This document shows positions 11,929 to 31,051 of a stretch of DNA of 43,014 nt, in pieces. The notes under the pieces are model-generated. The model saw only the letters and a program-made list of their open reading frames with translations, was not told the DNA's origin and ran no database searches. Each line of letters opens with the position of its first letter. The first letter of the stretch is position 1. Origin of the DNA: an uncultured Alphaproteobacteria bacterium (GTDB lineage: Bacteria; Pseudomonadota; Alphaproteobacteria; Rhizobiales; Aestuariivirgaceae); NCBI GenBank assembly GCA_937870685.1, contig CALMZX010000070.1, positions 1 through 43,014 of the forward strand. Direction: 5' to 3'. A program made the position numbers and the translations under genes.

Positions 11929-12161
11929 GGCTGGCCACCGGCAAGGATGCGAATCGCTTGGGACGCCCATGCCCCCAGTGAAGCGGCCAGCGAAAAGAGC
12001 AGCAGCACAGCCATCCAGCCGCCCCTGGCGCGCACCAGCGCGTCACGGATTTCACGCACGTCGCTGCGGATGGCTTGCAGTTCGTGTTCCACCGTTTCCA
12101 TGCGGGCCTGCAGCCCGCCAATCTCTCGTTCAAAGTCACCCATGGCTGGTCCTGTTGTCAT
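11925..12161 (-). CDS. Small XhlA-like coiled-coil/membrane protein of the lysis cassette
   Basis: A 78-residue protein whose ATG (12161) overlaps the DUF2793 stop as ATGA and whose own stop overlaps the lysozyme ATG in the same way. Residues 9-46 form a heptad-rich coiled coil (EREIGGLQARMETVEHELQ, IRSDVREIRDALVRAR). Residues about 49-70 are one membrane helix (MAVLLLFSLAASLGAWASQ), followed by a short tail. This is the layout of XhlA-type proteins, which cooperate with holin and lysozyme in PBSX-like lysis cassettes. The resemblance is in architecture and position, not firm homology. The longer frame upstream of 12161 lies inside the DUF2793 gene and is rejected. Confidence 0.7.
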   Translation of the reverse strand: MTTGPAMGDFEREIGGLQARMETVEHELQAIRSDVREIRDALVRARGGWMAVLLLFSLAASLGAWASQAIRILAGGQP

Positions 12162-14611: not shown

Positions 14612-17600
14612 GGATGATCCTTTCGAGTGGCGTGCCGGGGCCGTAGCTGTCGCTCAGCTGCGCCACACGGAATGTGAATGAGGCGGGCAGTGCGCCAAAA
14701 TCGGCGAGCATCTCGGCGTTGCTGTAAAAGGCGGCAGGGGTTGTCACGTCGCTGCTGCGCAGAAGCGCCGCGCCATCAAGCACGCTCACCCGGTAACGCT
14801 CCTGCGCTTCGCCAAGGGGAATCTCCGCGAGGTCCCAGCTGTCGCCTGCAAGGCGCGACTGTCTGATCCATGAAAACGCAATGCCACCTGCTTCGCTTCT
14901 TGAACGAAGCCGCACCGGTGGCAGGGGCCGCAGGGCTTTCAGCGTGCCGTTTGTCGTCAATTGCAGATAGGCCTTGTGCCCGGAATCCAGCCCGTGCGGA
15001 CCGATCCGCCAGGTGGATGAAAGCCCGGCCTCGGTGAGGGCAAGTGCCGGTTGCACCACGGCGGCATTGAGCAGCACGAAGCGGGCGCCCGCTTCCCGCA
15101 ATGGCAGCATCTCCGCGCCTGAACCTGCCAGCCCGCGCAGCAGTCCGTGCAGGCGGTAGGTATTGGGTGCCGTCAGCGTGGCAGCCTCGAACTGGATGAT
15201 TTCGAAGCCACTGTCCGGTGTTCCGATGGCCGCGGCATTGACGCCGTTCAGGAGTTCCAGACGGCTAACGGATGACAATGCGCCATGGTTCAGCACCACA
15301 TCGAAGGTGTTGCCATGATCCATGCGTGCCAGCGGTCCGGCAGGCAGTGCCGTCAAGGTGAAGCCCATGGTCGCCTGTTCGGAGACGAAACGGTTGAAGC
15401 CATAGGCGGCGTTGCCTTTCTGGCGCAGCAGGGCGAGGCGTCCCGGCCACGGTGCGGCCTGCGCCGCTATCCAGGGTGCGGCCGGTTGATCACCGCTTGC
15501 CAGCGCCAGGTCCATGAACAACGCATCCGGCGCACCATAGATCACAGCCTCCGTCCCGGCCTTGAGGCGCAGCACGGCAGGTGGCGGATCGTAGATGGTG
15601 GCGGCGTGGGCCAGTGCCTCGGCCTTGCGCGCCACGCCATCGGTGAGCGCCGTCAGCCGGAACGGTTGGCCGTCAATGGTCACCGCATCGCCCGGCTCGA
15701 GCGCGAGGCGCGAGGGCGGCAGCGCGAAGGATGCCGCCGTGCGCTGGCACCACGCCTCTTCCAGCGCCACATCACAGCGGGCCTGCGCCAGTGACTGGTT
15801 CACTGCGGCGGGAAGGCTGAGCGCGATCTCGCGGGCGCTGTGGCTTGCGGCGCGATCCTGCATCACGGCGGCACTGCGGTAATCGAGGCCTGAGTCCACA
15901 TAGGAAATCCGCACAACCGCCGGCAGGTCGGTTTCCTGCGCCCGGGTTTCGCTGAACACCGGCTTGTCCGCCCCCTCATCCACCAGTTCCTCATGCGGCA
16001 CGAGCAGCTGCGGGCTTTCCATCCGTGTACGGATGACCATCCGGCCGCCGGATTCAACCGCGTCAAGCGCAAAGACCCGCAGCAGGCTTTCCAGGGCGTC
16101 GCGCCCGGACATGGGGCGGTCGAGGACATAGCCGTCCACGAGGCCGGAAACGCCTTCCACCGCCACATCGCCAAGGCCGAAGCGCGCCGCCACCTCCCGC
16201 ACAAGTTCGGCAAGATCAATGGCGCCGAGGCGGCCATTCAGCCAGTGGCCGCGGGCATGGTTGGCCCCATCACCCCAGATGTCGGTGCGCACCGGAAAAG
16301 CAGGATAGGGTCTGGCATCCCAGGCCCAGAAAAACAGCCGGTCGGCGGGAACCATGGGCTGGCCGTTCAGGTCAGACACCGGATTGTGCGGTCCGCTGGT
16401 TGCCCAGTGGTCAGCCATGGCGAGGATATAGCGGTTCTGGATCAGGTCATCCGGCTGGCCACCGGAGAAAGGCGGCACGGCGCTCTCGGACGACTTGGCA
16501 TCGAAGAAGACATTGGGACCATTGCTGCCCTTGTCGATGGCGGGGCAGCCCAGTTCCGTGAACCACACGGGCTTGGATTGCGGTTGCCAGGCCGTTGCCG
16601 TGGCATTCTCCACACCGCCCGGCCTGTTGTGGTGGGCGTTGAGCCACCAGTTCTTCACGTCCTTGGGGCGGAACACCCAGGGCTTGCCATAGGCGCCATC
16701 GGTGATTGGCGTGCGCAATTGCTGGGCACGGTCGGAATCCGAGGCATAGAACCAGTCGTAACCTTCGCCACCGGCAATTCCGCTTGCGAGGTAGGACGGG
16801 TCGTAGATCGAGCGCCATCCCGCCATCGCATCGGCATGGCTGGTGCCATCGCGCCAATCCGTCAGCGGCATGTAGTTGTCGATGCCGATGAAGCCGACAT
16901 GCGGCGAGGCCCACAACGGATCGAGGTGGAAATGCACATCGCCCGAACCGTCCTGCGGCTGGTGGCCGAAATACTCCGACCAGTCCGCCGCATAGGAGAC
17001 CTTGGCCCCCGGCAGAATGGACTTCACATCGGCCGCCAGAGCCACCAGTGCCGATACAAATGGATAGGCCGAAGGTCCGGACCGCAGCGTTGTCAGTCCG
17101 CGCAATTCGCTGCCGATGAGAAAAGCGTCAACACCGCCCGCTTCCGCGCACAGCATCGCATAGTGCAGGATCATGCGGCGGTAGGACCATTGCGGCTCCC
17201 CGGCATACACAATGGTTTCGCCGGAGGGACTGAAGTCCGCTTCCACTGCAGTGCCCGTGAAGGCGGCGACCTGCGTTGCCGCTGTCGCGGTCCTGTCGGG
17301 CGTGCCTGCGCGTCCGGGCGCGATGCTCGCCGTGATGCGGCCACGCCAGGGATAGGCTCCTTGCGTTCCGGCAGCGTAGGGATTCGGCTTGCTGTTGCCC
17401 TGCGGCACATCCATCAGCACGAAGGGGTAGAACATCACCTTCAGGCCGCGCGCCTTCAGGTCGGCGATGGCACGCAGCACCGAGGCATCCGATGGTGTTC
17501 CGCCAAAGGCCGGCACGCCATCCACCTTGCTCACCTCGAGCGCCTCGTCACGCCCGATGCCGGAGACTTGCCACGGTTCGCCCGTTGTCACCTTCTCCGC

Positions 17601-18479
17601 ATTGTCCACGCCGGGGCGGATACTGCAGTGGTTGCAGCGCAGGTCGTCGCCGAACCAGGCCACAACCAGCGAGGCCATGCCGAGGTTGGGTGCCGTGCCC
17701 TGCAACTGGTCCAGCGCCACGCTCCAGTCGCTGCGTTCGGCAGAGACATGGGCATTCTCGCTGGCCACTTGCCCCGGTGCCGTTTCCTGCTGGATGATTT
17801 CGGTGTCGTAGCCAAACTCGGTGGAGCCGGGAATGATGTTCACCGCGCGAACGCGTGCCGCCGCACCATTGCCCTTGCCGATCACCTCGAAGGCCAGTTG
17901 CGGAATGCGGTTACCGAATTCAGCCAGCGGCAGGCGGTCAAAAACCAGATAGGCAAGGCCGCGGTAGGCGGGAGCGTCACCATCACCTTCGATCGCTTCG
18001 ATCAGGCTGTCGGGCAGTTGCGTCTCGCTGCCGTTGTAGAAACGCGTCGTGAAGGTGGAGATGTCAATCTCGCGGCCATCAGCCCAGACGCGGCCCACCC
18101 GGTCGATCCCGCCCTCGCACAGGCCCACGGCGAAATTGGCGTAGTAGGCATATTCGGTTGTGGTGGCCTTGGGGCCTCCTTTGCCGGAAGCGCTTTGCGT
18201 GGAGGTCGCGGCTTCTTCGAGAATATGCGTGGCCCAGATCACCTGTCCGGAAATCCGCATGCGCCCCCAGAGAGCGGGAATGGCGGCCCCTTCTTCGGAT
18301 GCCATCACGCGCAGGTCGGTGAGGCGCGGGCCTTCGCGGTGCTGCTTTTCGCCAAAGAGTTTCTGGTCCAGCACATTGCCGGCGAGCGCCCCTGCGGCCC
18401 GTCCCAGCACGCCGCCCAAGGGCCCGCCGATCAGCGTGCCAAGGGCAGCGCCTGCATATTGGAGAACAACTGTGGCCAT
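14604..18479 (-). CDS. RcGTA gp15-like tail hub protein with TIM-barrel glycoside hydrolase-like domain
   Basis: A 1291-residue protein, the usual length for GTA gp15. The N-terminus has a glycine/alanine-rich membrane-like segment (LIGGPLGGVLGRAAGALAGN). This is followed by a baseplate hub region with EGAAIPALWGRMRISGQVIWA. Residues about 430-730 form the GTA_TIM glycoside-hydrolase-like barrel (LIGSELRGLTTLRSG, VSYAADWSEYFGH, VWFTELGCPAIDKGSNGP with a candidate acid residue). A Phage-tail_3 domain follows (about 790-950), then beta-sandwich repeats (FEIIQFEAATLTAPNTYRLHGLLRGLAG). It is thought to form the tail spike that penetrates the recipient envelope. It begins three bases after the NlpC/P60 gene stop. 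Confidence 0.94.
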   Translation of the reverse strand: MATVVLQYAGAALGTLIGGPLGGVLGRAAGALAGNVLDQKLFGEKQHREGPRLTDLRVMASEEGAAIPALWGRMRISGQVIWATHILEEAATSTQSASGKGGPKATTTEYAYYANFAVGLCEGGIDRVGRVWADGREIDISTFTTRFYNGSETQLPDSLIEAIEGDGDAPAYRGLAYLVFDRLPLAEFGNRIPQLAFEVIGKGNGAAARVRAVNIIPGSTEFGYDTEIIQQETAPGQVASENAHVSAERSDWSVALDQLQGTAPNLGMASLVVAWFGDDLRCNHCSIRPGVDNAEKVTTGEPWQVSGIGRDEALEVSKVDGVPAFGGTPSDASVLRAIADLKARGLKVMFYPFVLMDVPQGNSKPNPYAAGTQGAYPWRGRITASIAPGRAGTPDRTATAATQVAAFTGTAVEADFSPSGETIVYAGEPQWSYRRMILHYAMLCAEAGGVDAFLIGSELRGLTTLRSGPSAYPFVSALVALAADVKSILPGAKVSYAADWSEYFGHQPQDGSGDVHFHLDPLWASPHVGFIGIDNYMPLTDWRDGTSHADAMAGWRSIYDPSYLASGIAGGEGYDWFYASDSDRAQQLRTPITDGAYGKPWVFRPKDVKNWWLNAHHNRPGGVENATATAWQPQSKPVWFTELGCPAIDKGSNGPNVFFDAKSSESAVPPFSGGQPDDLIQNRYILAMADHWATSGPHNPVSDLNGQPMVPADRLFFWAWDARPYPAFPVRTDIWGDGANHARGHWLNGRLGAIDLAELVREVAARFGLGDVAVEGVSGLVDGYVLDRPMSGRDALESLLRVFALDAVESGGRMVIRTRMESPQLLVPHEELVDEGADKPVFSETRAQETDLPAVVRISYVDSGLDYRSAAVMQDRAASHSAREIALSLPAAVNQSLAQARCDVALEEAWCQRTAASFALPPSRLALEPGDAVTIDGQPFRLTALTDGVARKAEALAHAATIYDPPPAVLRLKAGTEAVIYGAPDALFMDLALASGDQPAAPWIAAQAAPWPGRLALLRQKGNAAYGFNRFVSEQATMGFTLTALPAGPLARMDHGNTFDVVLNHGALSSVSRLELLNGVNAAAIGTPDSGFEIIQFEAATLTAPNTYRLHGLLRGLAGSGAEMLPLREAGARFVLLNAAVVQPALALTEAGLSSTWRIGPHGLDSGHKAYLQLTTNGTLKALRPLPPVRLRSRSEAGGIAFSWIRQSRLAGDSWDLAEIPLGEAQERYRVSVLDGAALLRSSDVTTPAAFYSNAEMLADFGALPASFTFRVAQLSDSYGPGTPLERIIHV

Positions 18480-18482
18480 GGT

Positions 18483-18914
18483 TCAGGTCAGGTCCGGAAA
18501 GCGGAAGACAAAGGCGATGCGGCGCTGCCACCAGGTCGACAGCGACACCTCGCACACGGAAAGCCCGTCGTGGGCATGGATCATGCGGTTTGCCGAAACG
18601 GCAATGCCTGCGTGTTTCGCGGGCAGGTGCGGCTTCCAGCGGAAGAGCAGCACATCACCCGCGGCAAAGGCGTTCTCTGGCACAGGGAGAAGATGGCGGA
18701 CGCCCGCCTCGGCCAGCGCCTCGACGCCGGAGGCCTCGGCCCATCCGGGAGCATAGGGTGGTGGCACTTCCGGTTCGCTGCCATAGACCTCGCGCCACAC
18801 GCCGCGCACCAGGCCAAGGCAATCGCAGCCCACGCCCTTGACGCTGGCCTGGTGCCGGTAAGGCGTGCCGATCCAGCCGCGCGCTGCGGCGATAATGTCC
18901 GATTGCTGGGGCAT
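18483..18914 (-). CDS. NlpC/P60 family peptidase (RcGTA gp14-like)
   Basis: I start at ATG 18914 (MPQQSDIIAAARGWIGTPY); the longer frame upstream overlaps the DUF2163 gene and is not used. The 143-residue protein is an NlpC/P60 cysteine peptidase with Cys32 in GCDCLGLVRG as nucleophile and the histidine of KHAGIAVS as base, followed by MIHAHDGL. In GTAs this enzyme cleaves the stem peptide of peptidoglycan at the tail tip so that DNA can pass. It starts seven bases after the gp13 stop and ends three bases before gp15. The residues needed for activity are all present. Confidence 0.93.
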   Translation of the reverse strand: MPQQSDIIAAARGWIGTPYRHQASVKGVGCDCLGLVRGVWREVYGSEPEVPPPYAPGWAEASGVEALAEAGVRHLLPVPENAFAAGDVLLFRWKPHLPAKHAGIAVSANRMIHAHDGLSVCEVSLSTWWQRRIAFVFRFPDLT

Positions 18915-18921
18915 GGCTGTT

Positions 18922-19806
18922 TCAGTTTCTCTTGCCGCCGGTGTTGGCGGGATCGCCCTGACGGGCAAAGCCGGTGACGAAATCATTGCCCGGCATGTGG
19001 GGGAAACCGCGAAAATTCGCGGCATTGTTGAACTTGCTCCGGCAGGTCGAAAATTGCCGGTCGCATCCGGCTGTGAGGCGGATCTGGTCGCCTGGCGCAA
19101 CGGCGAAGGCCGGAGCCTGCCAGAGCGTGATGTGATCCTCGCCCTCCATGTTGCGCTGGCGTTTGATGGCAAGGCTGCGCCCCTGTCCGTCGCCGCTCAG
19201 CCACAGAACGCGGCCCCGGGTGAACCAGTCGTCGGCGGCGGCAATGCCGGAGACGCGGAGCGTCTCGCCAGTCACTGCCATCACGGTTGCCGTCACGCTG
19301 TAGGCTGGCAGATTGGCATTGACGCCGCAGCGCGCATCCCCCAGCACAGCGTCACAGCCATGCTGGTAGATGCGCCCACGGGTCTGGCCCAGGATGTGCG
19401 AGAGGCCGCGCACTTCAGCCTGGAAAGCACCATCGCCATAGGTCACCTCGCCGAGGTGGCCCTTGCGCATGAGCAGGCGTTGGCTCACGTCGCTCCAGTT
19501 CACCCGCCAGATTTCGACTTCGGCATGGTCGAAATCACCTGCACGCAATCTTCCTGCGTCCAGCATGCCTGATTGCAGCGCTCCGCTGGCCTCCAGGTTG
19601 TCCACGGAAAATCCGAGCGAAGACTCGATTTCGCTGCCGGTGAATCCGGCCGCGGCCTCGAACGTCGTTCCGTCAAACTGCAACGCGCGGTCATGGTCGG
19701 TGAAGCCCAGCCGCTCGCCGGAGGCCAGAGTCAGGCGCCAGCAATGGCAGAGCGTTGTCGTGCCGGAGTCGAGATGGGCCTGCATCCCTGCAGGCAAAGT
19801 CCTCAT
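18922..19806 (-). CDS. DUF2163 / phage BR0599 family baseplate protein (RcGTA gp13-like)
   Basis: A 294-residue protein with the DUF2163 signature at the start (CHCWRLTLASGERLGFTDHD, then LQFDGTTFEAAAGFTGSEIES) and the BR0599 C-terminal domain (TRGRIYQHGCDAVLGDARCGVN, then AGCDRQFSTCRSKFNNAANF and FPHMPGNDFV). Four conserved cysteines are present; in RcGTA the homologous hub protein binds an iron-sulfur cluster, so a metal cluster is plausible here. The ATG overlaps the DUF2460 stop by four bases. It belongs to the distal tail hub. Confidence 0.93.
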   Translation of the reverse strand: MRTLPAGMQAHLDSGTTTLCHCWRLTLASGERLGFTDHDRALQFDGTTFEAAAGFTGSEIESSLGFSVDNLEASGALQSGMLDAGRLRAGDFDHAEVEIWRVNWSDVSQRLLMRKGHLGEVTYGDGAFQAEVRGLSHILGQTRGRIYQHGCDAVLGDARCGVNANLPAYSVTATVMAVTGETLRVSGIAAADDWFTRGRVLWLSGDGQGRSLAIKRQRNMEGEDHITLWQAPAFAVAPGDQIRLTAGCDRQFSTCRSKFNNAANFRGFPHMPGNDFVTGFARQGDPANTGGKRN

Positions 19807-20432
19807 GGCCGCACCTCGATCAGGGGGATGTCGGGAATTTCACCTGCTTCGAAGTGCGAGAGGTTGATGCTGATCTGGTCCGTGTCAAAACGCACTGGCA
19901 CATCAAACGCGAATCCGGCGGTCACGCTGGCCCCGGCTGCGGGAATGTGGCCGGGCAGAAAGGTGATCCTGCCTGTTGCCGCATCGAGGGTGAAGTGCGG
20001 CGTGGCCGTGCCGTTCACCGCCACCACAACGCTGCCTGCCACGGGGGCCGTGATCTCGCGCACATGTTCGCGTGCTCCCGTGCCATGGCGTTTGACAAGC
20101 TGGAACACTGTTGCCGAGCCGTCGCCCGTTCCCAGAAGCTGGTCCGTCGCCGCAGGCGTTGCAGCGGGCGGGCAGGACTTGAAATCCGCATGGTCCCGGA
20201 AGCGGAAGGCATGCAGCCTGCCCCGCCGTTCCTCGAAGAAGGCCACCACGGCCTGCACGTCGGCGATGGTCTTCATGCCGAAGCCCACATTGTAGCGGCG
20301 GCGTGAATGGGCCCAGCGGCTGTTGCGTTCCTCGCGGCCCGAGGCGGTTGTCACCACATCGGTGCGCCGCTCCGGCCCGCCGCTTGCGCCCCTGGCGATC
20401 GACACGGGGAAACTCACATCGTCGTAACTCAT
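19803..20432 (-). CDS. DUF2460 distal tail protein (RcGTA gp12-like)
   Basis: A 209-residue protein typical of DUF2460: DVSFPVSIARGASGGPERRT at the N-terminus, RNSRWAHSRRRYNVGFGMKT, VVAFFEERRGRLHAFRFRDH and GRITFLPGHIP. The family forms the distal tail ring that connects the tube to the hub. It overlaps the tape measure stop by one base and the DUF2163 start by four, in the fixed GTA order. Length and composition are ordinary. Confidence 0.94.
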   Translation of the reverse strand: MSYDDVSFPVSIARGASGGPERRTDVVTTASGREERNSRWAHSRRRYNVGFGMKTIADVQAVVAFFEERRGRLHAFRFRDHADFKSCPPAATPAATDQLLGTGDGSATVFQLVKRHGTGAREHVREITAPVAGSVVVAVNGTATPHFTLDAATGRITFLPGHIPAAGASVTAGFAFDVPVRFDTDQISINLSHFEAGEIPDIPLIEVRP

Positions 20433-20986
20433 TAGCTGTTCCTCTGGCCGCGCGCCAGCGCCCGGCTCATCTGCGCGGCGATTTGGCTCTGCGATTGCCG
20501 GAAGGACTGGATGTCAGGCGTGGTGATGTTGATGGTGACGTGTTGGCCGCTTCCGCCGCCACGCACGCCGAGCTTGCCGTCAGGCCCACGCGCCAGCGGC
20601 ATGATCGCCTCCGGCCCCGCCTCCCCCATCAGTCCGGTGCCACCGCGCAACGGGAACAGCACCGGCGAATTGACGATGCCGCCCGCAGCAAAGGGTGTCA
20701 CGCGGCCCGCCGAGAACACGTTTCCATTGGCGTTGGCGAAGAGCCCGCCCAGCAGGTTGCCCACCATGTTGCCAAGCGGTTTCAGCGCCTGCGACAGCGC
20801 CTGGTTCGCCATGGAGAGTGCCAGTCCCCGGAACACGTCCGAGAGCTTGCGGCCATGCACCACAGCACCCGCGAGCGAAGTCACCAGCCTGTTGCCGAAC
20901 GAGTCCGCCAGCCGCGAGAGGTCCTGCATCTCGCCGCGCAATTCGCTTACGCGGGACGATAGTGTGTCTGTGGTTTCAGGTGTCAT
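20432..20986 (-). CDS. Short phage tail tape measure protein (RcGTA gp11-like)
   Basis: A 184-residue protein with the tape measure hallmarks: N-terminal helical region (TLSSRVSELRGEMQDLSRLA), a hydrophobic middle ALSQALKPLGNMVGNLLGGLF and the conserved FAAGGIV...GGTGLMGEAGPEAIMPLARGPDGKLGV block. In phages the length of this protein sets the tail length; 184 residues is short even next to the roughly 220 of R. capsulatus gp11, pointing to a short tail. It starts 11 bases inside the end of the -1 frame extension of the tail chaperone, and ends on the first base of DUF2460. Confidence 0.93.
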   Translation of the reverse strand: MTPETTDTLSSRVSELRGEMQDLSRLADSFGNRLVTSLAGAVVHGRKLSDVFRGLALSMANQALSQALKPLGNMVGNLLGGLFANANGNVFSAGRVTPFAAGGIVNSPVLFPLRGGTGLMGEAGPEAIMPLARGPDGKLGVRGGGSGQHVTINITTPDIQSFRQSQSQIAAQMSRALARGQRNS

Positions 20987-21179
20987 GATGTTGATCCGGC
21001 CATTGGGCCATCAGGTCAAGGAAGCTCTGGCGCAGCCCCTGCACGGGAGGGGAACCCGTGTCACACACGAGTTCGCGCAGGGTGCTGCGCCAGAACTGTT
21101 CGGGCGCGAGACGCAAGTCCCGCAGGCCCAGTTTCAGGAGGGCGCGCCACGGAAAGCGATGTTCCGTGGCGCTTAGGGA
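20976..21179 (-). CDS. rcc01693-like tail assembly chaperone extension, read by -1 frameshift from gp10
   Basis: The -1 frame relative to gp10 encodes 67 residues from TCC at 21179 to TGA at 20978-20976: SLSATEHRFPWRALLKLGLR, DLRLAPEQFWRSTLRELVCD, then GLRQSFLDLMAQWPDQHHDT. The FPW-x10-15-LRLAPEQFW-x4-REL pattern is that of the rcc01693 (gp10.1) phage tail assembly chaperone family. The frame contains no ATG, GTG or TTG for more than 100 bases upstream of FPW, so it cannot be started independently in the usual way. The slippery signal at the end of gp10 explains its expression as a 176-residue gp10 fusion, like lambda GT. The frame overlaps the tape measure start by 11 bases. Confidence 0.85.
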   Translation of the reverse strand, partial: SLSATEHRFPWRALLKLGLRDLRLAPEQFWRSTLRELVCDTGSPPVQGLRQSFLDLMAQWPDQHHDT

Positions 21180-21185
21180 TTTTTT
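21144..21185 (-). promoter_or_regulatory. Programmed -1 ribosomal frameshift signal (slippery heptamer plus stem-loop)
   Basis: On the minus strand, the heptamer A AAA AAT (21185-21179) lies in the gp10 frame directly before its CCC TAA end. After a 6-base spacer (CCCTAA, 21178-21173) comes a perfect 11-bp stem: GCGCCACGGAA (21172-21162), 7-base loop (21161-21155), TTCCGTGGCGC (21154-21144). Tandem slippage by -1 moves reading from gp10 into the rcc01693-like frame. All three elements of a classical frameshift site are present, and the downstream frame has no start codon. Confidence 0.88.
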
Positions 21186-21505
21186 GGCGGCGCGTCCTCG
21201 ACGGCAAAGGTGGCCTTGAGCAGGTCGGCGACGATGCGGAGATAACCCGCGGCCCCGCCATCCACCTGCATCGCCGCCACGTCTTCGTCCGTCACGGCGT
21301 TGCCCGCGCCGCGCAGGCCTGCGCCAATGACGCGGATCGCATCGGTTGCACGGATGCGGCCCTGTTCAAAGCGTTCGGCGATGGCGAGAAGATCCTCGCC
21401 GCCATAGGCATGTTCGATTTCGGCGAGCGCGCCCAATGTCAGGCAGAGCGTATAACGACGCCCGCCCAGTTCAGCCTCGATTTCACCCCGGTGACGATTG
21501 GCCAT
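21173..21505 (-). CDS. GTA gp10 family tail assembly chaperone
   Basis: A 110-residue protein starting MANRHRGEIEAELGGRRYTL, with LCLTLGALAEIEHAYGGEDL and GRIRATDAIRVIGAGLRGAG, matching the GTA TA0X10/gp10 family. The closely related phage proteins are G-type tail assembly chaperones that coat the tape measure during tail assembly. The start overlaps the tail tube stop by one base. The last codons AAA AAT CCC TAA lie within the frameshift signal, so most ribosomes should make the 110-residue form and a minority a 176-residue fusion. Confidence 0.9.
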   Translation of the reverse strand: MANRHRGEIEAELGGRRYTLCLTLGALAEIEHAYGGEDLLAIAERFEQGRIRATDAIRVIGAGLRGAGNAVTDEDVAAMQVDGGAAGYLRIVADLLKATFAVEDAPPKNP

Positions 21506-21912
21506 CAGGACACCGTGAAGGTCAGCGCACCGGCCGAGGCGAGTGCGAGTTCGAAGGTCACTTCGCCGTCATGACGTCCGGCATAGTCGAGGGCGGAAAT
21601 CTGGAAGGGGCCTTCCAGCGTGCCGAAGTCGGGGATGATGACCTGCCAGGCCACGATCTGGGCGGCGAAGAACAGGCCCCGCACCGTGGCATCGCTGGCG
21701 GCATCTTTGAACAGGCCCTGTCCGCGGATGGAGGCGGTTTTCAGCCCGGCACCCGCCAGCAGTTCGCGCCAGGCACCGGCACTGTCCTGGGTGGTGGCGT
21801 CCACCGTTTCGGCGTTGAACGAGAGGCTGGTGGCGCGCAGGCCCGCAACTGTTTCGAAGCCTGTGCCGTTGTGTACCTTCAAGAGAAGGTCACGGCCTTT
21901 TTGTGCTGTCAT
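21505..21912 (-). CDS. Major tail tube protein, TP901-1 family (RcGTA gp9-like)
   Basis: A 135-residue protein: AQKGRDLLLKVHNGTGFETV, GLRATSLSFNAETVDATTQD, SAGAWRELLAGAG, FQISALDYAGRHDGEVTFEL. This is the TP901-1-type major tail protein, which stacks in hexamers to build the tail tube. An AGGAGC box (21917-21922 region) precedes the ATG. It starts 10 bases after the tail terminator stop and overlaps gp10 by one base. No anomalies were seen. Confidence 0.93.
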   Translation of the reverse strand: MTAQKGRDLLLKVHNGTGFETVAGLRATSLSFNAETVDATTQDSAGAWRELLAGAGLKTASIRGQGLFKDAASDATVRGLFFAAQIVAWQVIIPDFGTLEGPFQISALDYAGRHDGEVTFELALASAGALTFTVS

Positions 21913-21922
21913 GGAAAGCTCC

Positions 21923-22327
21923 TCAGAGGGGTTCGGTGGCGGCGCGGAAACGCAGTTGCGCGCCGAAGGTCTGTTCGTTTCGGTTGCGCGCCACGCTCCA
22001 GAAGACGAGGCGGAGGTTCACCAGCGCGTGCCCGTCCAGCACAAGATCGCCCCTGTCGAGCACCGTTTCGATGCGGTCGCAGATGGCCTGGGCCTGGGTG
22101 CGGCCGCGTTCGGCGGTGGCCACCTGCAGCTGCACGAAGTGCTCGTGGGCCTTGGCGTCTGCCGTGCTCCAGTCGCGGGTTTCGATCTGTTCAAAGCTGA
22201 CGAAAGGAGGCCTGGCACCGCGCGGCGCTTCGTCGAAGACATGGGCGCCGCCCAAAAGCGCGGCGAGCGGTGCATCGGCCAGAAGGGCATCGCGCATGGC
22301 CCGTTGCAGGCTGAGCGCGGCGTTCAT
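21923..22327 (-). CDS. DUF3168 tail terminator protein (RcGTA gp8-like)
   Basis: A 134-residue DUF3168 protein: NAALSLQRAMRDALLADAPL, AALLGGAHVFDEAPRGARPP, FVSFEQIETRDWST, HEHFVQLQVAT and CDRIETVLDRGDLVLDGHALV, the standard pattern. It caps the tail tube and joins it to the head. The ATG overlaps the gp6-like connector stop by four bases. In other GTA clusters a head-closure gene stands between these two; here there is no room for it. Confidence 0.93.
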   Translation of the reverse strand: MNAALSLQRAMRDALLADAPLAALLGGAHVFDEAPRGARPPFVSFEQIETRDWSTADAKAHEHFVQLQVATAERGRTQAQAICDRIETVLDRGDLVLDGHALVNLRLVFWSVARNRNEQTFGAQLRFRAATEPL

Positions 22328-22890
22328 GCCAGCCTCACGCTGCGGTGGGTGGCCAGCAGGTCGAGCGCTGCCAGCGGCAGTGCCCCACCCTCTCCATCGC
22401 CGCGATGGTCGAACCAGTGGGCGACGCCGAGCAGGATGGCCTGGCGCAGTTCCTCCGGCACGGCGGAGGCCGCGCCAAATCCCGCCGTGAAGCGCACTTC
22501 GATGGCATTGACGGGCCTTCCGCCGCGCGGCGGTGTCCGGCCATCGCGCAACACCGCCCGGGCGGGCCGCGAGACGTGATCGAGATAGTAGTGCGCCGGA
22601 TCAAGCGTCGCGGGTGTGTCATCAACACCATAGGTGATGATGTCTCCGATTGCCGTGACAGGGGCCAGTTGCAGCGGCAGCGCAGGGCAATCTGGCCAAC
22701 GGTCCGCGAACAGCGACCAGGCTTGCGTCACCAGACGGAGGGATGTTGCCTGTTCGACGGCGCGGCGCGCAGCCACGATCAGCCGCGCGATATAGGCATC
22801 GTCATCGGCATGGGTCACACGCAAATGCGTCTTGGCCTCGGCCAGCGAAACAGGTTCCGCCGCCGGAGGGGTGGTCAGGATGAGGGGCAT
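22324..22890 (-). CDS. Head-tail connector protein (phiE125 gp8 / RcGTA gp6-like)
   Basis: A 188-residue protein with the connector signature: EPVSLAEAKTHLRVTHADDD, AYIARLIVAARRAVEQATSL, LPLQLAPVTAI, and VRFTAGFGAASAVPEELRQA followed by ILLGVAHWFDHR. Such proteins form the ring below the portal. The C-terminus ends RSVRLA with a normal stop, so it is not fused to a closure domain. It is separated from the capsid gene by 102 bases that hold a palindromic heptamer repeat. No strong Shine-Dalgarno site is seen before the ATG. Confidence 0.92.
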   Translation of the reverse strand: MPLILTTPPAAEPVSLAEAKTHLRVTHADDDAYIARLIVAARRAVEQATSLRLVTQAWSLFADRWPDCPALPLQLAPVTAIGDIITYGVDDTPATLDPAHYYLDHVSRPARAVLRDGRTPPRGGRPVNAIEVRFTAGFGAASAVPEELRQAILLGVAHWFDHRGDGEGGALPLAALDLLATHRSVRLA

Positions 22891-22923
22891 GGGAGGCTCG
22901 TGAAGTGGAGTGAATTTTCACAA

Positions 22924-22988
22924 GCGAGTAGCGAGAAGCGAATAGCGAATAGGGAATCCCTACTCGCTATTCGCTATTCCCTATTCGC
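22924..22988. repeat. Palindromic array of 7-bp units between capsid and connector genes
   Basis: Two 32-base arms (22924-22955 and 22957-22988) are inverted repeats with 27 of 32 positions matching. Each is built from heptamers such as GCGAATA/GCGAGTA on the left and CTATTCG-type units on the right. The transcript would fold into a long hairpin starting five bases after the capsid stop. Heptamer arrays of this GCGAATAGCGAATAG type are dispersed in many rhizobial-group genomes. It may stabilise the 3' end of capsid mRNA. Confidence 0.85.
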
Positions 22989-22992
22989 TATC

Positions 22993-24201
22993 TTACGACA
23001 CGCCGAACTTCAGCGTCTTGATCGCCTCGAAGTTCTGGATGCCGCCGCCCACGCGCTTGGTCGTGTAGAAGAGCACGTAGGGCTTGGACGAGTAGGGATC
23101 GCGCAACATGCGCACGCCCACACGGTCCACGATCAGGTAGCCGCGCTTGAAGTCACCGAAGGCCAGTGCATGGGCGTCGGTGGCGATGTCGGGCATGTAT
23201 TCGCTCTCCATCACGCGGAAGTTCATCAGCGTGGCGGTGCCATCGGCGGTGGCGGCCGGCTGCCAGAGGTAGTTGCCCGCCGTGTCCTTGAACTTGCGGA
23301 TCGCGGCTTGCGTGGCGCGGTTCATGATCCATGTGCCGTTCTGGCGGTAGCCTGCCTTGAGTGCGTAGATCACGTCCACCAGTTTGTCGCTCGGGTTGCT
23401 GGCAGCGAAGCCACCTGCAACGCCGGTGGCGATGTAGCCGGTCGATCCCCAGGCCCAGGAGGCATTGGCCACCTTGGTGTAGTCCATGAAGCCCTTGGGC
23501 TTGTTCACGCCGTTGCCGGTGACGAAGGCTTCCGATTCCTGTTCGGCGAAGACCGTCTCAACCTCCTGTGCGATCCACTGGTCAAGGTTGACAGCGGAGT
23601 CGTCGAGAAGCGCCTGCGTCGCCGCCGGCATGGAGTAGAGTTCCATGGCGGGGAACTGCAGTTCCGCCAAAGTGTTGGTCGCGGTTTCGGGCCGGACCGC
23701 CGTCTCACCCACCCAGCCGGAGGCCGCACCCACGGTGGCAAAGGGCTTCTTGTAAACGGCCGAAGACACCTGGCGCACATCGGCAATCAGGCGCATGGGC
23801 GAGGCTTTGGAGAGAAGCCGTCCGATCTCGGCTTCGGTTTCCGACGGCACGAGATAGCCGCCGTCCGGATTGGAAGCGATCGACATGGATTTCTGTTCGA
23901 TGTCGAACAGGCCCTGCGTTTCGCCCTTGCGCACATAGCCATCAAAGGCGCGCTTGTGTTCGGAAGGTTCCGTCTTGGTTTCGGCGGCGAGCAGCGGACG
24001 GCGGGTCTTCAATGTCAGTTCGTCGATGGCGCGGCCGATGCGATCCACCTTCTCGGCGGTCACCACGTCGGCGCTCATGCGCTTCTCGATCTGCGCCAGG
24101 CGTTCGTCGTTGGCGTACTTGAAGGCTTCAAAGGCGATCAGCACATCATCCTGTGCCGTGCCTGCCACCACTTTCGTTTCCAGCGCGGTTGCAAAATCCA
24201 T
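22993..24201 (-). CDS. HK97-fold major capsid protein (RcGTA gp5-like)
   Basis: I start at ATG 24201 (MDFATALETKVVAGTAQDD), two bases after the protease stop; the longer frame overlaps the protease and lacks sense. The 402-residue protein has an N-terminal coiled-coil delta-domain (residues about 15-85, IAFEAFKYANDERLAQIEKR), GGYLVPSETEAEIGR, SMPAATQALLDDSAVNLDQW and the C-terminal PYVLFYTTKRVGGGIQNFEA, as in the HK97 family. The delta-domain is normally cut off by the protease. It forms the icosahedral head that packages host DNA. Confidence 0.95.
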   Translation of the reverse strand: MDFATALETKVVAGTAQDDVLIAFEAFKYANDERLAQIEKRMSADVVTAEKVDRIGRAIDELTLKTRRPLLAAETKTEPSEHKRAFDGYVRKGETQGLFDIEQKSMSIASNPDGGYLVPSETEAEIGRLLSKASPMRLIADVRQVSSAVYKKPFATVGAASGWVGETAVRPETATNTLAELQFPAMELYSMPAATQALLDDSAVNLDQWIAQEVETVFAEQESEAFVTGNGVNKPKGFMDYTKVANASWAWGSTGYIATGVAGGFAASNPSDKLVDVIYALKAGYRQNGTWIMNRATQAAIRKFKDTAGNYLWQPAATADGTATLMNFRVMESEYMPDIATDAHALAFGDFKRGYLIVDRVGVRMLRDPYSSKPYVLFYTTKRVGGGIQNFEAIKTLKFGVS

Positions 24202-24203
24202 GT

Positions 24204-24740
24204 TCAGGTTTCTCCGTGTTGTGAAGGGGTCGGGCCATTCTTGAAGAGCGCATCCGCCAGGGCCCGGCCTGCGGAGGTCACGTTGCTCACCCGCGCACCC
24301 TCCAGCATGGGGAAGGTGACGAGCGAGATTTCCCAAAGATCCACGTTCAGCAGACGGCGCGCCTTCACCAGGCGGTCGGTCTTGGCGGCAACCGTGCGGA
24401 AGCCGATGGACAGGCCATCAATGCCGCCGGACTCGAGCAGCGAGAGCAGTTCGCGGCCGCGCTGCACGTTGCGGTCGAGGCGGCCCAGCACGTAGAGCCC
24501 GCGCGGCGTCTCGCGGATTTCCAGCCAGCTGCCCACGGGCTCCGCCGGATTGTGCTGGAAGAGCATGCGCACACCAGATGTGCCGCGCCTCCGCAGGCTG
24601 TCGGTGAAGGCGCCGGGCATCACGATGTCGCCCTGCCCGTCACGCGCGCCAAACAGGCTGGCATAACCGGCAAACACGCCATGGGCGGAGAGCGCCTGCA
24701 ACGGCTTCTCCACCCCGCGCCTTGGCAAAGGCTGGGTCAT
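24204..24740 (-). CDS. HK97-family prohead protease (RcGTA gp4-like)
   Basis: A 178-residue serine protease of the U35/HK97 prohead family: FAGYASLFGARDGQGDIVMP, His63 in MLFQHNPAEPVG, Ser111 in GLSIGFRTV and WEISLVTFPML. The catalytic His and Ser are in place. It processes the capsid delta-domain during head maturation. It begins 26 bases after the portal stop and ends two bases before the capsid ATG. Confidence 0.95.
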   Translation of the reverse strand: MTQPLPRRGVEKPLQALSAHGVFAGYASLFGARDGQGDIVMPGAFTDSLRRRGTSGVRMLFQHNPAEPVGSWLEIRETPRGLYVLGRLDRNVQRGRELLSLLESGGIDGLSIGFRTVAAKTDRLVKARRLLNVDLWEISLVTFPMLEGARVSNVTSAGRALADALFKNGPTPSQHGET

Positions 24741-24766
24741 TGCATTTTCCTCAGTGTACGGATGGT

Positions 24767-25897
24767 TTAACGGGTGTAACCGACCGCCTGCCGCTTCTCG
24801 TCCACGCTCAGGAAGGTCGCGTCATTGACGCGTTTCCACAGGGCATCGCGGTCGGGGGCGAGGGCTTCCACCTGGTCAAGGTCGGGCAGCAGTGCGAGAG
24901 ACCCTCCGGCATGGGGCTCCAGCCACAGGGCCAGCGCATCGGCCACACGCAACAGCAGCGGCACGACCGTCTGCCGCCAGAACACGCGGTTGGCTTCGGC
25001 ATAGTTGGCGTATGTGTTGTCGCCGGGAATGCCCAGCAGCATCGGCGGCACGCCGAAGGCCAGCGCCACTTCGCGCGCCGCCATGTTCTTCGATTCAATA
25101 AAGTCCATGTCCTTCGGGCTGAAACCCATTTCCTTCCAGTCGAGGCCGCCTTCCAGCACCAGCGGACGTCCGGCATTGGCCGCCCCCTGATAGGCCGATT
25201 GCAGCTCGCCCTTCAGGCGCTCGAACTGTTCGGTTGTCAGGTGACCGTCCGCCGCCGCAAAGACCAGCGCGCCCGAGGGCCGCGCCGCATTGTCCAGCAT
25301 GGCCTTGTTCCAGGCGCTGGCGGCATTGTGGGTGTCGATGGCGCGGGCTGCGGCTTCCAGCGGTGAAAGCCCGTAGTGGTCATCACCGGGATTGAACAGT
25401 CTGAGGTGCAGAACGTTTTCGCGCGGCAGCCGCACGGATGTTCCGCCCACGGAGTATTCGTAACCTTCCGGCCAGCCGGAACGCGACGGCACCACGGCCA
25501 TGCGGTCGGGGCGCAGGGCGAAGATCTCGCGCGGGGTTCCATCGAGCGACACCAGTTCGGCATAGGCATTGCCCGCCAGCAGCAACTGTGTCACCAACTG
25601 GTCGATGAGATCGCGCCCGCCTTGCGCCGGGTTGGGCCGCGCCAGCAGGGATTTCAGTGGATGCGCCTCCACCTCCGCGCCATCCACCATCATCAGCAGC
25701 GGCACGGCGCTCACCGCTTCCGCAATCATGCGCACGCAGCGGTAACCGATCACATTTCCGGCAAAGCCCTCACGCGCCAGCGCCGCATAGTTGCGCGGCG
25801 TCCAGTGCGGACGCCCGGCACTGTGCAACGCCACCAGTGGTGCTGCGGCGGAGGATTTGGTGGAGAGAAGGGTTTTGAGTTTTGAGAGCATTTTCAT
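24767..25897 (-). CDS. Phage portal protein, HK97 family (RcGTA gp3-like)
   Basis: A 376-residue portal protein: GFAGNVIGYRCVRMIAEAVS, AVPLLMMVDGAEV, HPLKSLLARPNPAQGGRDLI, LLLAGNAYAELVSLDGTPRE, VLHLRLFNPGDDHYGLSPLE and FGVPPMLLGIPGDNTYANYA. It forms the dodecameric DNA-entry ring and binds the terminase. ATGs at codons 1 and 3 are both possible starts. The gap from the terminase stop is 19 bases. The length is as usual for GTA portals. Confidence 0.95.
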   Translation of the reverse strand: MKMLSKLKTLLSTKSSAAAPLVALHSAGRPHWTPRNYAALAREGFAGNVIGYRCVRMIAEAVSAVPLLMMVDGAEVEAHPLKSLLARPNPAQGGRDLIDQLVTQLLLAGNAYAELVSLDGTPREIFALRPDRMAVVPSRSGWPEGYEYSVGGTSVRLPRENVLHLRLFNPGDDHYGLSPLEAAARAIDTHNAASAWNKAMLDNAARPSGALVFAAADGHLTTEQFERLKGELQSAYQGAANAGRPLVLEGGLDWKEMGFSPKDMDFIESKNMAAREVALAFGVPPMLLGIPGDNTYANYAEANRVFWRQTVVPLLLRVADALALWLEPHAGGSLALLPDLDQVEALAPDRDALWKRVNDATFLSVDEKRQAVGYTR

Positions 25898-25916
25898 TCC
25901 CTATCGCGATCTTCGA

Positions 25917-27245
25917 TCACACCGCCCGCACCCGTGGCCCCTGCTGTTTTCGCAGCAGCAGTTCGGTGAGCGCCCAGACCAGCGCGTCCAGCCGGTCAGG
26001 AGAGGTGCCGTCTCCGATCACCGAGCACATTTCATCTTCCAGTTCGGCGAAGGCGCCGACGTGTGAGACGCGGCCCTGTTCGTAGAGGGCGGCCACCGGT
26101 TCGGCGCGGGCCTTCTTGCCTTTGGAGGCATGCACCGCCTTCACCGGCAATGCGCCGTCCACCTGGGCCAGCACGTCGCGCACCATGTCGCCGCCCTGGT
26201 TCACCTCGGCGACGATGCGGTCAGCGCCACGCTGGTGAAAGAGCTTCGCCACGCGCGCCGCCCATTGCAGCGGTGTCAGCCGCCTGCAGCTTGCATCATC
26301 CAGCACATAGGCGCGGCCATCTTCGCCAAGCCCTGCGCAGACGATGCCGCAAGCGTTGGCCCGGGCTCCCGATGTGGCGGGCGGGTCCACAGCCACGACA
26401 ACGCGTGCCATCGGCGGCAGTTTCCGCACCCGTGCGCGCTCAATCATCTCTCTTGTCCACAGGGCATCCGGATCATCGGCGATCACCTCGCCGTCCAGTT
26501 CCTGCCGCCCGAGGTTCGTGCCGCCGTATTTCGCCAGCACTTCGGAGAGGAAGGTAGCGGCGAGGTTGCCCCTGTTGTCCAGCGTCTTCGAGCGCGTCAC
26601 CACGGTTGCCGCGTCATTGATCAGTGAACGGATCACTTTCGTCGGGCGCGGCGTCGTGGTGATCACCGCCTGCGGGGCCTCGCCCAGACGCAGCGCCATC
26701 TGCAGGTTCATCCACACCGTGTCGGCCTTTTTCCATTTCGCCATCTCGTCGCACCAGGCGGCGTCGAACTGCGGTCCGCGCAAGCCATCCGGCTCCTCCG
26801 CCGAAAAAATCTGCGCCACCGAACCATTGTGCCAGGTGATCGTGCGCTTGGACGGCTCGTAGCGCGGGCGCTCGCGTTCGTTGTGAACCGCCAGCAAGCC
26901 GCTTTCACCTTCGATCATCACCATGCGGGCCTCGTCAAAGGTCGGTGCCACGATGGCGATGCGGGCACAGCGGCTCAGCACCGGTTCCAGCACGCCGAGG
27001 GCGAGCAATTTCACCCATTCGGCCCCGGCGCGGGTCTTGCCCGCACCGCGCCCGCCCAGCACCAGCCAATTGCGAAAGTCATGTCCCTCCGGCGGCAGTT
27101 GCTGGCCCGGCCTCGCCCAGTACAGCCACTGGCAGTTCAGCTCCGTCACTTCCTTTGGTGTCAGGGTCTGCGACAACCAGTGTCCCGTCCCGTTCCGCTT
27201 CGAGTCTTTCAATTTTTGCCGCAAGCTGTCGACGCTGCTCGTCAT
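25917..27245 (-). CDS. Large terminase subunit, DNA packaging ATPase-nuclease (RcGTA gp2-like)
   Basis: With ATG 27245 the product is 442 residues; ATG 27302, TTG 27176 and GTG 27149 are alternatives, and none has a strong ribosome binding site. Walker A is GGRGAGKTRAGAEW (27056 onward), Walker B is the DAAWCDE segment, and the nuclease domain has VVAVDPPATSG, RIVAEVNQGGDMV and RLDALVWALTELL, all intact. It cuts and pumps DNA into the head; in GTAs this is nearly sequence-independent headful packaging. Whichever start is used, it overlaps the gp1-like gene by about 70-220 bases, because conserved residues (WLYWARPGQQLPPEG) lie close to that gene's stop. Confidence 0.93.
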   Translation of the reverse strand: MTSSVDSLRQKLKDSKRNGTGHWLSQTLTPKEVTELNCQWLYWARPGQQLPPEGHDFRNWLVLGGRGAGKTRAGAEWVKLLALGVLEPVLSRCARIAIVAPTFDEARMVMIEGESGLLAVHNERERPRYEPSKRTITWHNGSVAQIFSAEEPDGLRGPQFDAAWCDEMAKWKKADTVWMNLQMALRLGEAPQAVITTTPRPTKVIRSLINDAATVVTRSKTLDNRGNLAATFLSEVLAKYGGTNLGRQELDGEVIADDPDALWTREMIERARVRKLPPMARVVVAVDPPATSGARANACGIVCAGLGEDGRAYVLDDASCRRLTPLQWAARVAKLFHQRGADRIVAEVNQGGDMVRDVLAQVDGALPVKAVHASKGKKARAEPVAALYEQGRVSHVGAFAELEDEMCSVIGDGTSPDRLDALVWALTELLLRKQQGPRVRAV

Positions 27246-27684
27246 CAAAATACGTGTGGGCGGTGCGGTCCTGTCTGCGCTTGAGCTTTTCATTGCGTTC
27301 AAGGTCGATCACCTTCTCCAGGGTCCGCACCAACGTGTTGACGGACTTGATGCCGCGTTCGGTGTTGAGCGCACTCACCTCCTTGCCGAGGTCCTGCAGT
27401 TCCTCCTCCAACTGGGTGAGGCGCTTCTGCAGCATGTCCTTCAGGCGCTGCAGTGTTTCACGCGTCGATTCCGGCTTGCGGGCAACGGGGGCGGCCCTGC
27501 TCCTCGCCGTCACCTTGCGCTTGCCGCGCAAGGCCCAGCCCTCCTTCAATGCTTTCATGGCAAGCGTGATCCGCGTCATCCCGATGCCGCGGGCAATGGT
27601 GTCCACGGCCTCGGCACCGGCCTCATAGCGCGCGCGAATGCCCGCCCAAGCCGGATCGCCCGGCGGCGGTGGTGTGTTGGTCAT
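27079..27684 (-). CDS. Small terminase-like protein (RcGTA gp1-type), first gene of the GTA operon
   Basis: A 201-residue protein. The N-terminus (DPAWAGIRARYEAGAEAVDT, IARGIGMTRITLAMKALKEG W) is a helix-turn-helix-like DNA-binding region with a phage small-terminase flavour. Residues about 73-150 form a long coiled coil (ETLQRLKDMLQKRLTQLEEE, then LNTERGIKSVNTLVRTLEKV), a layout known for GTA gp1, which is expected to bring DNA to the large subunit. The C-terminal 50 residues overlap the terminase gene in another frame and are variable. It follows a promoter-like sequence and a hairpin in the leader. Homology to gp1 is inferred from position and layout. Confidence 0.78.
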   Translation of the reverse strand: MTNTPPPPGDPAWAGIRARYEAGAEAVDTIARGIGMTRITLAMKALKEGWALRGKRKVTARSRAAPVARKPESTRETLQRLKDMLQKRLTQLEEELQDLGKEVSALNTERGIKSVNTLVRTLEKVIDLERNEKLKRRQDRTAHTYFDDEQRRQLAAKIERLEAERDGTLVVADPDTKGSDGAELPVAVLGEAGPATAAGGT

Positions 27685-28963: not shown

Positions 28964-29007
28964 TGCCGCGATTGGCATTCTCCCGCTTTCTGATGCACAA
29001 TCGCGAC

Positions 29008-29499
29008 ATGAGTGAAAAAACGACATCGCCCGCCTTCTCCGGAACGGCGTCCACCTCCGTTGCTGCCATCTGCCTGCGCCACGGCAACCGGCCGGATACC
29101 CTGCTGGAAATCCTGCATGACGTGCAGGAGGAGTTGGGCCATGTGCCGGAGGCCGCACTTCCCGTCATCGCCAAGGCGCTGAACCTGTCTCGTGCGGAAG
29201 TCTATGGTGTCGCCACCTTTTACCACGATTTCCACCTGCACCCCGTGGGCAAGCATGTGATCCGCATCTGCCGTGCCGAAGCCTGCCAGTCCATGGGGGC
29301 GCGCGAGCTGCAGGCCATGGCGGAAAAATTCCTGAATGTGCGCATGGGTGGCACCACCTCGGACAACAAGGTGACACTGGAAGCCACCTACTGCCTCGGT
29401 CTCTGCGCCACCGCGCCTGCCATGATGGTGGATGGCAAGGTGGTCGGCCGTGTTGATGCCGCCAAGCTCAAGCCCATTCTTGCCGAGGTGATGAAATGA
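29008..29499 (+). CDS. fdsG: NAD-dependent formate dehydrogenase gamma subunit
   Basis: I start at MSEKTTSPAFSG (ATG 29008), giving 163 residues. The protein is a thioredoxin-like 2Fe-2S subunit of the NuoE/HoxE type: DTLLEILHDVQEELGHVPEA, NLSRAEVYGVATFYHDF, then the cluster ligands CRAEACQSMG and CLGLCATAPAMMVDG. It passes electrons between FdsB and the rest of the soluble formate dehydrogenase. The stop overlaps the fdsB ATG as ATGA. The upstream ATGs in the same frame have no ribosome binding site. Confidence 0.95.
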   Translation: MSEKTTSPAFSGTASTSVAAICLRHGNRPDTLLEILHDVQEELGHVPEAALPVIAKALNLSRAEVYGVATFYHDFHLHPVGKHVIRICRAEACQSMGARELQAMAEKFLNVRMGGTTSDNKVTLEATYCLGLCATAPAMMVDGKVVGRVDAAKLKPILAEVMK

Positions 29500-31046: not shown

Positions 31047-31051
31047 CTCCC

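Follow-up and report, generated by a model that had tools for sequence, protein, structure and literature searches.

The window analysed here, a 43,014-nucleotide stretch of a draft alphaproteobacterial genome assembly (155 contigs), carries on its minus strand what is, by family matches, an intact head-tail gene cluster of the RcGTA type. Terminase, portal, protease, capsid, tail tube, tape measure and GTA_TIM hub genes were all found (Table 1), and the remaining head-tail genes have open frames with family matches. The tape measure protein scored 213.5 bits against NF058675 RcGTA_tape (cut-off 220), and its ATG sits within the overlap with the end of the −1 frame described below. Immediately past the hub gene lies an 817-aa DUF2793 protein (12158–14611, minus strand), perhaps a tail fibre or adhesin, and the plus-strand region adjoining the cluster (28972–33913) holds genes that, from their translations, we take to resemble those of an NAD-dependent formate dehydrogenase or of NuoE/NuoF-like subunits.

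Table 1. Positions of the features discussed, numbered along the window.
Feature	Position	Strand	Basis
gp9, major tail tube protein	21505–21912	minus	PF06199 E 5.7e-46; Rcc01691 of PDB 6tba (solved RcGTA) E 4.2e-49
gp10, predicted tail assembly chaperone, unshifted form of 110 aa	21173–21505 (ATG 21505, TAA 21175–21173)	minus	PF11836 E 1.8e-30
Shine-Dalgarno-like GAGGA, possible 5' stimulator	21195–21199	minus	sequence, 9 nt before heptamer
Slippery heptamer A AAA AAT in gp10 frame, putative −1 shift site	21179–21185	minus	sequence; in-phase heptamers of relatives
Hairpin, 11 bp with 7-nt loop, probable 3' stimulator	21144–21172	minus	z −5.80
−1 frame with TAC_6/rcc01693 domain (gp10.1), 67 codons and TGA, C-terminal part of predicted 176-aa fusion	20976–21179	minus	PF09550 E 1.3e-11; codon list
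Tape measure protein, 184 aa	20432–20986	minus	NF058675 RcGTA_tape and PHROG tape measure families
Other GTA head-tail genes: terminase large subunit, portal, protease, capsid, connector, tail completion, gp12, gp13, NlpC/P60, GTA_TIM hub protein, DUF2793 protein	12158–27302	minus	Pfam matches

The gp10/TAC_6 pair lies between the major tail protein gene and the tape measure gene. The Pfam text for PF11836 reads tail tube protein, GTA-gp10, and the available text of PMC11409702 names RcGTA g10 (pfam11836) tail chaperone 1 and g10.5 tail chaperone 2. An AlphaFold2 model of gp10 (pLDDT 83.3) gave 278 matches among predicted viral structures, of which two had E ≤ 0.001, neither functionally named, and several from E 1.5e-3 on were named tail assembly chaperone or tail tube protein. 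Foldseek against the PDB returned 27 matches with none at E ≤ 0.001, and the gp10 profile gave 30 matches among solved structures (best E 0.19) with no phage protein among them. Since these solved-structure searches yielded nothing significant, the proposed chaperone role of gp10 is drawn from gene order, from the naming in PMC11409702 and from the weak matches to predicted viral structures.

The gp10 frame ends in CCA AAA AAT CCC TAA, with TAA one codon past A AAA AAT, and re-reading confirmed the slippery heptamer recorded there by the first-pass annotation. The −1 frame, running from a first codon TCC at 21179 to the stop TGA at 20978–20976, scored 45.2 bits against PF09550 (cut-off 23.4) and 53.9 bits against TIGR02216, just below the curated cut-off of 56.1, and the earlier assignment of this 67-codon open frame to the rcc01693 family was thereby borne out. 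The same holds for the claim that the frame lacks an ordinary start over more than 100 bases upstream: by the codon list its nearest upstream stop is TGA at 21368, no ATG, GTG or TTG lies in it between that stop and TTG at 21116, which is its first TTG and falls within the conserved motif, and no ATT, ATC, ATA or CTG precedes the FPW codons. A slip on A AAA AAT would join 109 residues to 67 in a protein of 176 aa, and translation without the slip gives 110 aa; these lengths match the two products from one start that had been proposed, and the heptamers of relatives support the frameshift reading of them.

Slippery heptamers at the junctions of relatives

Relatives were taken as the best gp10 or PF11836 matches and hence form a non-random sample. 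The search of the order gave a match in 198 of 297 genomes, with the best 30 loci and 79 further regions read, and that of the class in 46 of 289 genomes, with the best 30 loci read. In a third search, of an R. capsulatus-like family, 50 of 61 genomes matched and 32 loci were read (the best 30 together with L236 and L239), and a scan of genome contigs contributed the best 80 of 125 loci, many of them from the same genomes as the other searches and merged with these. After removal of L001, which duplicates the window, and of the filler locus L230, the set gathered apart from the R. capsulatus-like search comprised 258 loci, 256 with gp10 and 252 with TAC_6 downstream, and 220 distinct gp10/gp10.1 junctions made up the comparison set.

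Relative to gp10, TAC_6 was in the −1 frame at 199 of these junctions, in the +1 frame at 16 and in frame 0 at five. No ATG, GTG or TTG was present ahead of TAC_6 at 82 of the 220, and 81 of these 82 were in the −1 frame. An in-phase heptamer of the form X_XXY_YYZ occurred in the overlap of 74 of the 81 start-less −1 junctions, against 6 and 7 of 81 in the two wrong phases. Its letters vary (GGGAAAN, CCCTTTN, AAACCCT and AAAAAAY) and its form is kept, so that the conservation predicted for the heptamer was found in form and not in letters. In-phase heptamers were also present at 10 of 53 ATG junctions and 28 of 65 GTG/TTG-only junctions in the −1 frame, and heptamer and start codon are thus not strictly exclusive; the GTG/TTG-only class is itself mixed, because many such "starts" consist of the last gp10 base and the TG of its TGA.

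The seven start-less −1 junctions with no in-phase heptamer in the overlap were L149, L156, L140, L185, L208, L237 and L235, and in L208 CCCTTTCCC was found 3' of the gp10 stop. Only L215 combined the lack of a start with a TAC_6 domain in the +1 frame, where a long extension of the gp10 frame encloses it.

Some heptamers run into the codons for the FPW motif, and a stricter count was made that admitted only heptamers ending before FPW or at its first base; by this measure 59 of 81 junctions had one in phase, and 6 and 7 had one in the two wrong phases. Among the remaining 22 start-less −1 loci, 15 had C CCT TTC at FPW and seven had nothing. These C CCT TTC sites appear to be partly a coding effect: CCC TTT led into CCN TGG at 22 of 37 junctions with FPW inside gp10, and where FPW lies past the gp10 stop the counts were 2 of 40 with no start, 2 of 35 with ATG and 5 of 57 with GTG/TTG. 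TTTCCCT "heptamers" were discarded as simply the FPW codons. Per codon of overlap, the 81 start-less relatives had 0.0487 heptamers in phase against 0.0042 and 0.0049 out of phase, with an in-phase background of 0.0013 in their gp10 bodies and 0.0053 in their TAC_6 bodies. When the stricter count was weighted by clusters at 80% identity (57 clusters), it stood at 37.7 in phase against 5.3 and 4.4; the values were 8.8 against 2.1 and 1.1 of 15 at 70%, and 5.8 against 1.1 and 0.1 of 10 at 65%.

For 199 junctions, codon choice was examined in those dicodons of the gp10 tail that precede FPW. Pro-Phe/Leu was written C CCT TTN in 25 of 28 cases, Gly-Lys/Asn G GGA AAN in 25 of 33 and Asn-Pro A AAC CCT in 32 of 39, and in gene bodies CCT makes up 7.4% of Pro codons and GGA 8.9% of Gly codons. 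An earlier version of this count (47/53, 25/35 and 33/43) was set aside, having taken in dicodons that run into FPW.

RNA structure and upstream elements

In the window, 11 uninterrupted base pairs (GCGCCACGGAA / TTCCGTGGCGC) form a stem that is closed by a loop of 7 bases and begins 6 nt past the heptamer, as the first-pass annotation had described. The 56 nt after the heptamer folded with a z of −5.80 (300 shuffles), and over 101 nt the region gave a z of −3.34, with none of 200 shuffles equally good. This hairpin is predicted to be a probable 3' stimulator of the shift.

Across 14 loci with GGGAAA or AAAAAA sites (seven of the window's genus, the window included, and seven others), the mean z of the 56 nt after the heptamer was −1.60; the control for 56-nt folding, 11 loci of the same genus that have start codons, averaged −0.04. 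The six other heptamer-bearing members of the genus gave −2.49, −2.67, −1.32, −1.70, +0.53 and −2.23. In the window and in L008, L019, L023, L033 and L034 the main stem opens 6 nt past the heptamer, in L021 it opens at 8 nt, and L003 and L011 form longer stems across the same stretch. The wider set gave mean z values of −0.91 for GGGAAA sites (7 of 25 below −2), −0.65 for AAACCC and −0.28 for CCCTTT, and gp10 bodies, as a control for folding, gave −0.25 with 10 of 199 below −2. Structure after the heptamer is not general across the wider set of junctions, and the expectation that the stem would be conserved thus holds within the genus, where five of six other heptamer-bearing members have z between −1.3 and −2.7, and not generally beyond it. 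The pairing register of the window hairpin is 3 nt off that of its genus relatives, of which five of the six heptamer-bearing members have stems, and covariation within the genus amounted to one double-changed pair (18–41), a count of 1 that 276 of 500 shuffles reach and that is not decisive.

The hairpin might instead be a terminator, an attenuator or a chance palindrome with no part in shifting, which would be compatible with use of the heptamer and would accord with the lack of a general structure in the wider set and with the z of +0.5 of L021 in the same genus. However, no T run follows the hairpin, the mean z differs between the 14 heptamer loci and the 11 start-codon loci, and the stem opens at the same 6-nt distance in the window and five others of those 14, so that we regard an unrelated hairpin as unlikely.

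The GAGGA that lies 9 nt ahead of the heptamer in the window is an addition to the first-pass annotation. Among 72 loci with a heptamer and no start, 43 had Shine-Dalgarno-like 4-mers starting 8–17 nt upstream of the heptamer, whereas codon-shuffled linkers gave 24.5 ± 3.8 (largest value 36 among 500). A first count (37/72 against 15/216), made with a laxer control, was replaced by the codon-shuffled one. The enrichment is no more than suggestive of an upstream element that may aid the shift, since the loci are related and the positions are spread over 9–28 nt.

Own start codons for the second gene

The sister of the window on a five-protein tree (SH-aLRT 99) is L003, at 75% identity the highest for the window, which has G GGA AAA, no start codon and the same heptamer–FPW distance of 23 nt. 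Among 20 distinct junctions of other members of the genus, three had a heptamer and no start, two a heptamer and GTG/TTG, one a heptamer and ATG, nine ATG only and two GTG/TTG only, and three were in the +1 frame with their own ATG. The minimum number of switches between heptamer without ATG and ATG without heptamer was 5 on a five-protein tree of 46 rows, and a fast tree built from all 220 short rows raised it to 18, counts that vary with the tree and fit gain and loss alike. Five loci (L008, L021, L023, L112 and L117) have an in-phase heptamer together with a start codon overlapping the gp10 stop, and may be intermediates or use both.

Outside the order, the rest of the class supplied 22 distinct junctions, several of them with low gp10 or TAC_6 scores, which comprised 11 with a canonical heptamer and no start, five with ATG only, one with a heptamer and GTG/TTG, one with a heptamer and ATG, one with neither and three in other frames. 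A different picture was obtained for the R. capsulatus-like family, which shows a full-length match between gp9 and Rcc01691 (E 7.7e-72) and is probably that of R. capsulatus. There the second gene had its own start in all 32 loci read (28 ATG, 4 GTG), its frame was −1 in 18, +1 in 12 and 0 in two, and an in-phase heptamer was found in two.

In a phage collection, gp10 matched six records, of which five were read (L261–L265), all five with an in-phase heptamer before a −1 TAC_6-like frame; a TAC_6 protein query of the same collection gave no match. The −1 frame has an overlapping TTG in L261 and L262, an overlapping ATG in L263 and a GTG 64 nt before the gp10 stop in L264, and in L265 no start was found ahead of the domain. 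Two of these records, L261 and L262, may in fact be pieces of GTAs that were deposited as phages. Placing the signal in "this kind of GTA", as the first-pass annotation did, was therefore too narrow, since it also occurs outside the order Hyphomicrobiales and in phage records. The second chaperone is annotated from an internal ATG past the FPW or PW(E) motif in L261 (1905–2063), L262 (1884–2063), L264 (1272–1457) and L265 (1281–1445), and in L263 the annotation begins at the overlapping ATG; dropping the motif in this way is perhaps a general error in frameshift-type clusters.

Homologues that lack a slippery site and in which the second gene has a start of its own, named beforehand as evidence against a frameshift, were thus found in the window's own genus and in 30 of the 32 R. 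capsulatus-like loci. They are taken here as a control rather than a refutation, because start and heptamer are mostly alternatives there. Overall, −1 frameshifting looks widespread in alphaproteobacterial GTAs and appears to alternate with overlapping starts.

The own-start relatives also bear on whether TAC_6 in the window might be a separate protein, begun at an unusual or internal codon in its own frame and coupled to gp10 termination. Overlapping ATGA or GTGA starts are found in many relatives, the window has the TTG at 21116, and ATT, ATC, ATA or CTG occurs in the TAC_6 frame of 52 of 72 start-less loci with canonical heptamers, against 40 and 31 in the other frames. However, none of those four codons lies before FPW in the window, and a start at 21116 would remove FPW...DLR. 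A separate start would also leave unexplained the in-phase heptamers and the −1 frame of 81 of 82 start-less loci, and the family with a start in 32 of 32 loci shows a drifting frame (12 of 32 in +1 and 2 of 32 in 0); we consider this reading very improbable. Still less credit is given to transcriptional slippage on the window's run of six A, by which mRNAs with an extra base would arise: relatives carry GGGAAAN, CCCTTTN or AAACCCT there, with no long single-base runs, and the hairpin and the Shine-Dalgarno-like element suit ribosomal shifting, though slippage could still contribute in the window. An indel in the A6 run that split one gene or deleted a start, whether by sequencing or assembly error or by decay, would suit a draft genome with a homopolymer at the site, but is the least probable of all given that the start-less layout recurs with other heptamers in Hyphomicrobium zavarzinii ATCC 27496, Filomicrobium insigne CGMCC 1.6497 and several Ancylobacter, and that the other head-tail genes of the window are open and match families. 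Ancylobacter aquaticus, like H. zavarzinii, is among the cultured strains whose junction is start-less.

Predicted mechanism and comparison with known systems

The anatomy of the window and the comparisons point to programmed −1 ribosomal frameshifting within the gene for the tail chaperone of this RcGTA-type GTA, a reading to which we give a probability of roughly 0.9. The site is real and conserved and in all likelihood works; its kind is familiar from phages, and here it is found in a GTA. The majority of ribosomes would finish gp10 at its TAA and yield the 110-aa chaperone; the hairpin would hold some ribosomes on the heptamer, perhaps assisted by the upstream Shine-Dalgarno-like element, and in these the Lys and Asn tRNAs would slip one base back so that the start-less TAC_6 frame is read and the 176-aa fusion is made. 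On the model of lambda G/GT, the coat around the short tape measure protein would consist of gp10, and recruitment of the tail tube protein gp9 would fall to the less abundant fusion, with the shift rate setting the ratio of the two. In lineages with an own start, that start, which lies close to the end of gp10 or overlaps it, would yield the second part as a separate, unfused protein; fusion itself therefore seems unnecessary, and the important quantity may be the ratio.

We further lean towards the view that the frameshift is ancestral in alphaproteobacterial GTAs and came from phage ancestors, its slippery form having been selected while the letters turned over and having often been replaced by an overlapping start. 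If so, two translational devices for one protein ratio would swap within one genus, and a retained heptamer would be evidence that cryptic clusters still build tails.

Several earlier papers touch on frameshifting in related settings, here as given in the portions of their text that were available. PMC8601537 implies that most of the Rhodobacter phages it describes show a frameshift, and a +1 frameshift has been put forward for another gene, that of a Wolbachia phage hydrolase (PMC10299305). In a ranking of heptamers in E. coli with the strongest stimulator, 61 of 64 were positive, A_AA.C_CC.U was outside the three failures, and A AAA AAT was absent from the strongest motifs (PMC4066793). No description of frameshifting at GTA g10/g10.1 was found in the available portions of the open literature, including PMC8601537, PMC3711429, PMC5009743, PMC4276943, PMC10885494, PMC10299305, PMC11409702, PMC9765227, PMC9022992, PMC8718954, PMC7296036, PMC6209664 and PMC9632790.

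The model-RcGTA family has start codons, and work on it would therefore not reveal the frameshift device. Gene finders miss or shorten the second chaperone in frameshift-type clusters, as in four of the five annotated phage-collection records (L261, L262, L264 and L265). The presence of frameshift and start codon within one genus offers a natural experiment on the purpose of the ratio and of the fusion, and a heptamer kept in form and not in letters offers a test of whether a GTA cluster is selected as a working particle.

The slippery site of lambda G/GT is GGGAAAG, a heptamer that is present among the window's relatives. As in lambda, the frames overlap between the major tail protein gene and the tape measure gene, and the second frame is −1, start-less and preceded by a slippery heptamer. 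Unlike lambda G/GT and the tailed phages, the present system is a cellular GTA with the domains TAC_11 and TAC_6, in which the heptamer letters change and an overlapping start occurs as an alternative. The gpG/gpGT ratio in lambda is 30:1 according to the portion of PMC5009743 available. RcGTA g10/g10.1 belongs to a homologous family with the same gene order, and the window gp9 matches Rcc01691; unlike in the window, the second gene of the R. capsulatus-like family has its own start throughout the loci read. The phiCbK-like Caulobacter phages have a chaperone pair ahead of the tape measure gene with slippery AAAAAAC or GGGAAAC (PMC3556154, available text); they are phages and not GTAs, and in that text only gp96, gp97 and gp99, not the chaperones, are related to GTA proteins. 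A similar layout was seen in the phage genomes Desulfofustis LS06-2018-MD02, ctuI7215 and ctOK67, in which a gp10-like gene (41%, 36% and 30% identity to the window gp10, respectively) is followed by a TAC_6-like −1 frame with in-phase GGGAAAC, GGGAAAC and CCCTTTA, respectively; ctOK67, unlike the window, has an overlapping ATG too.
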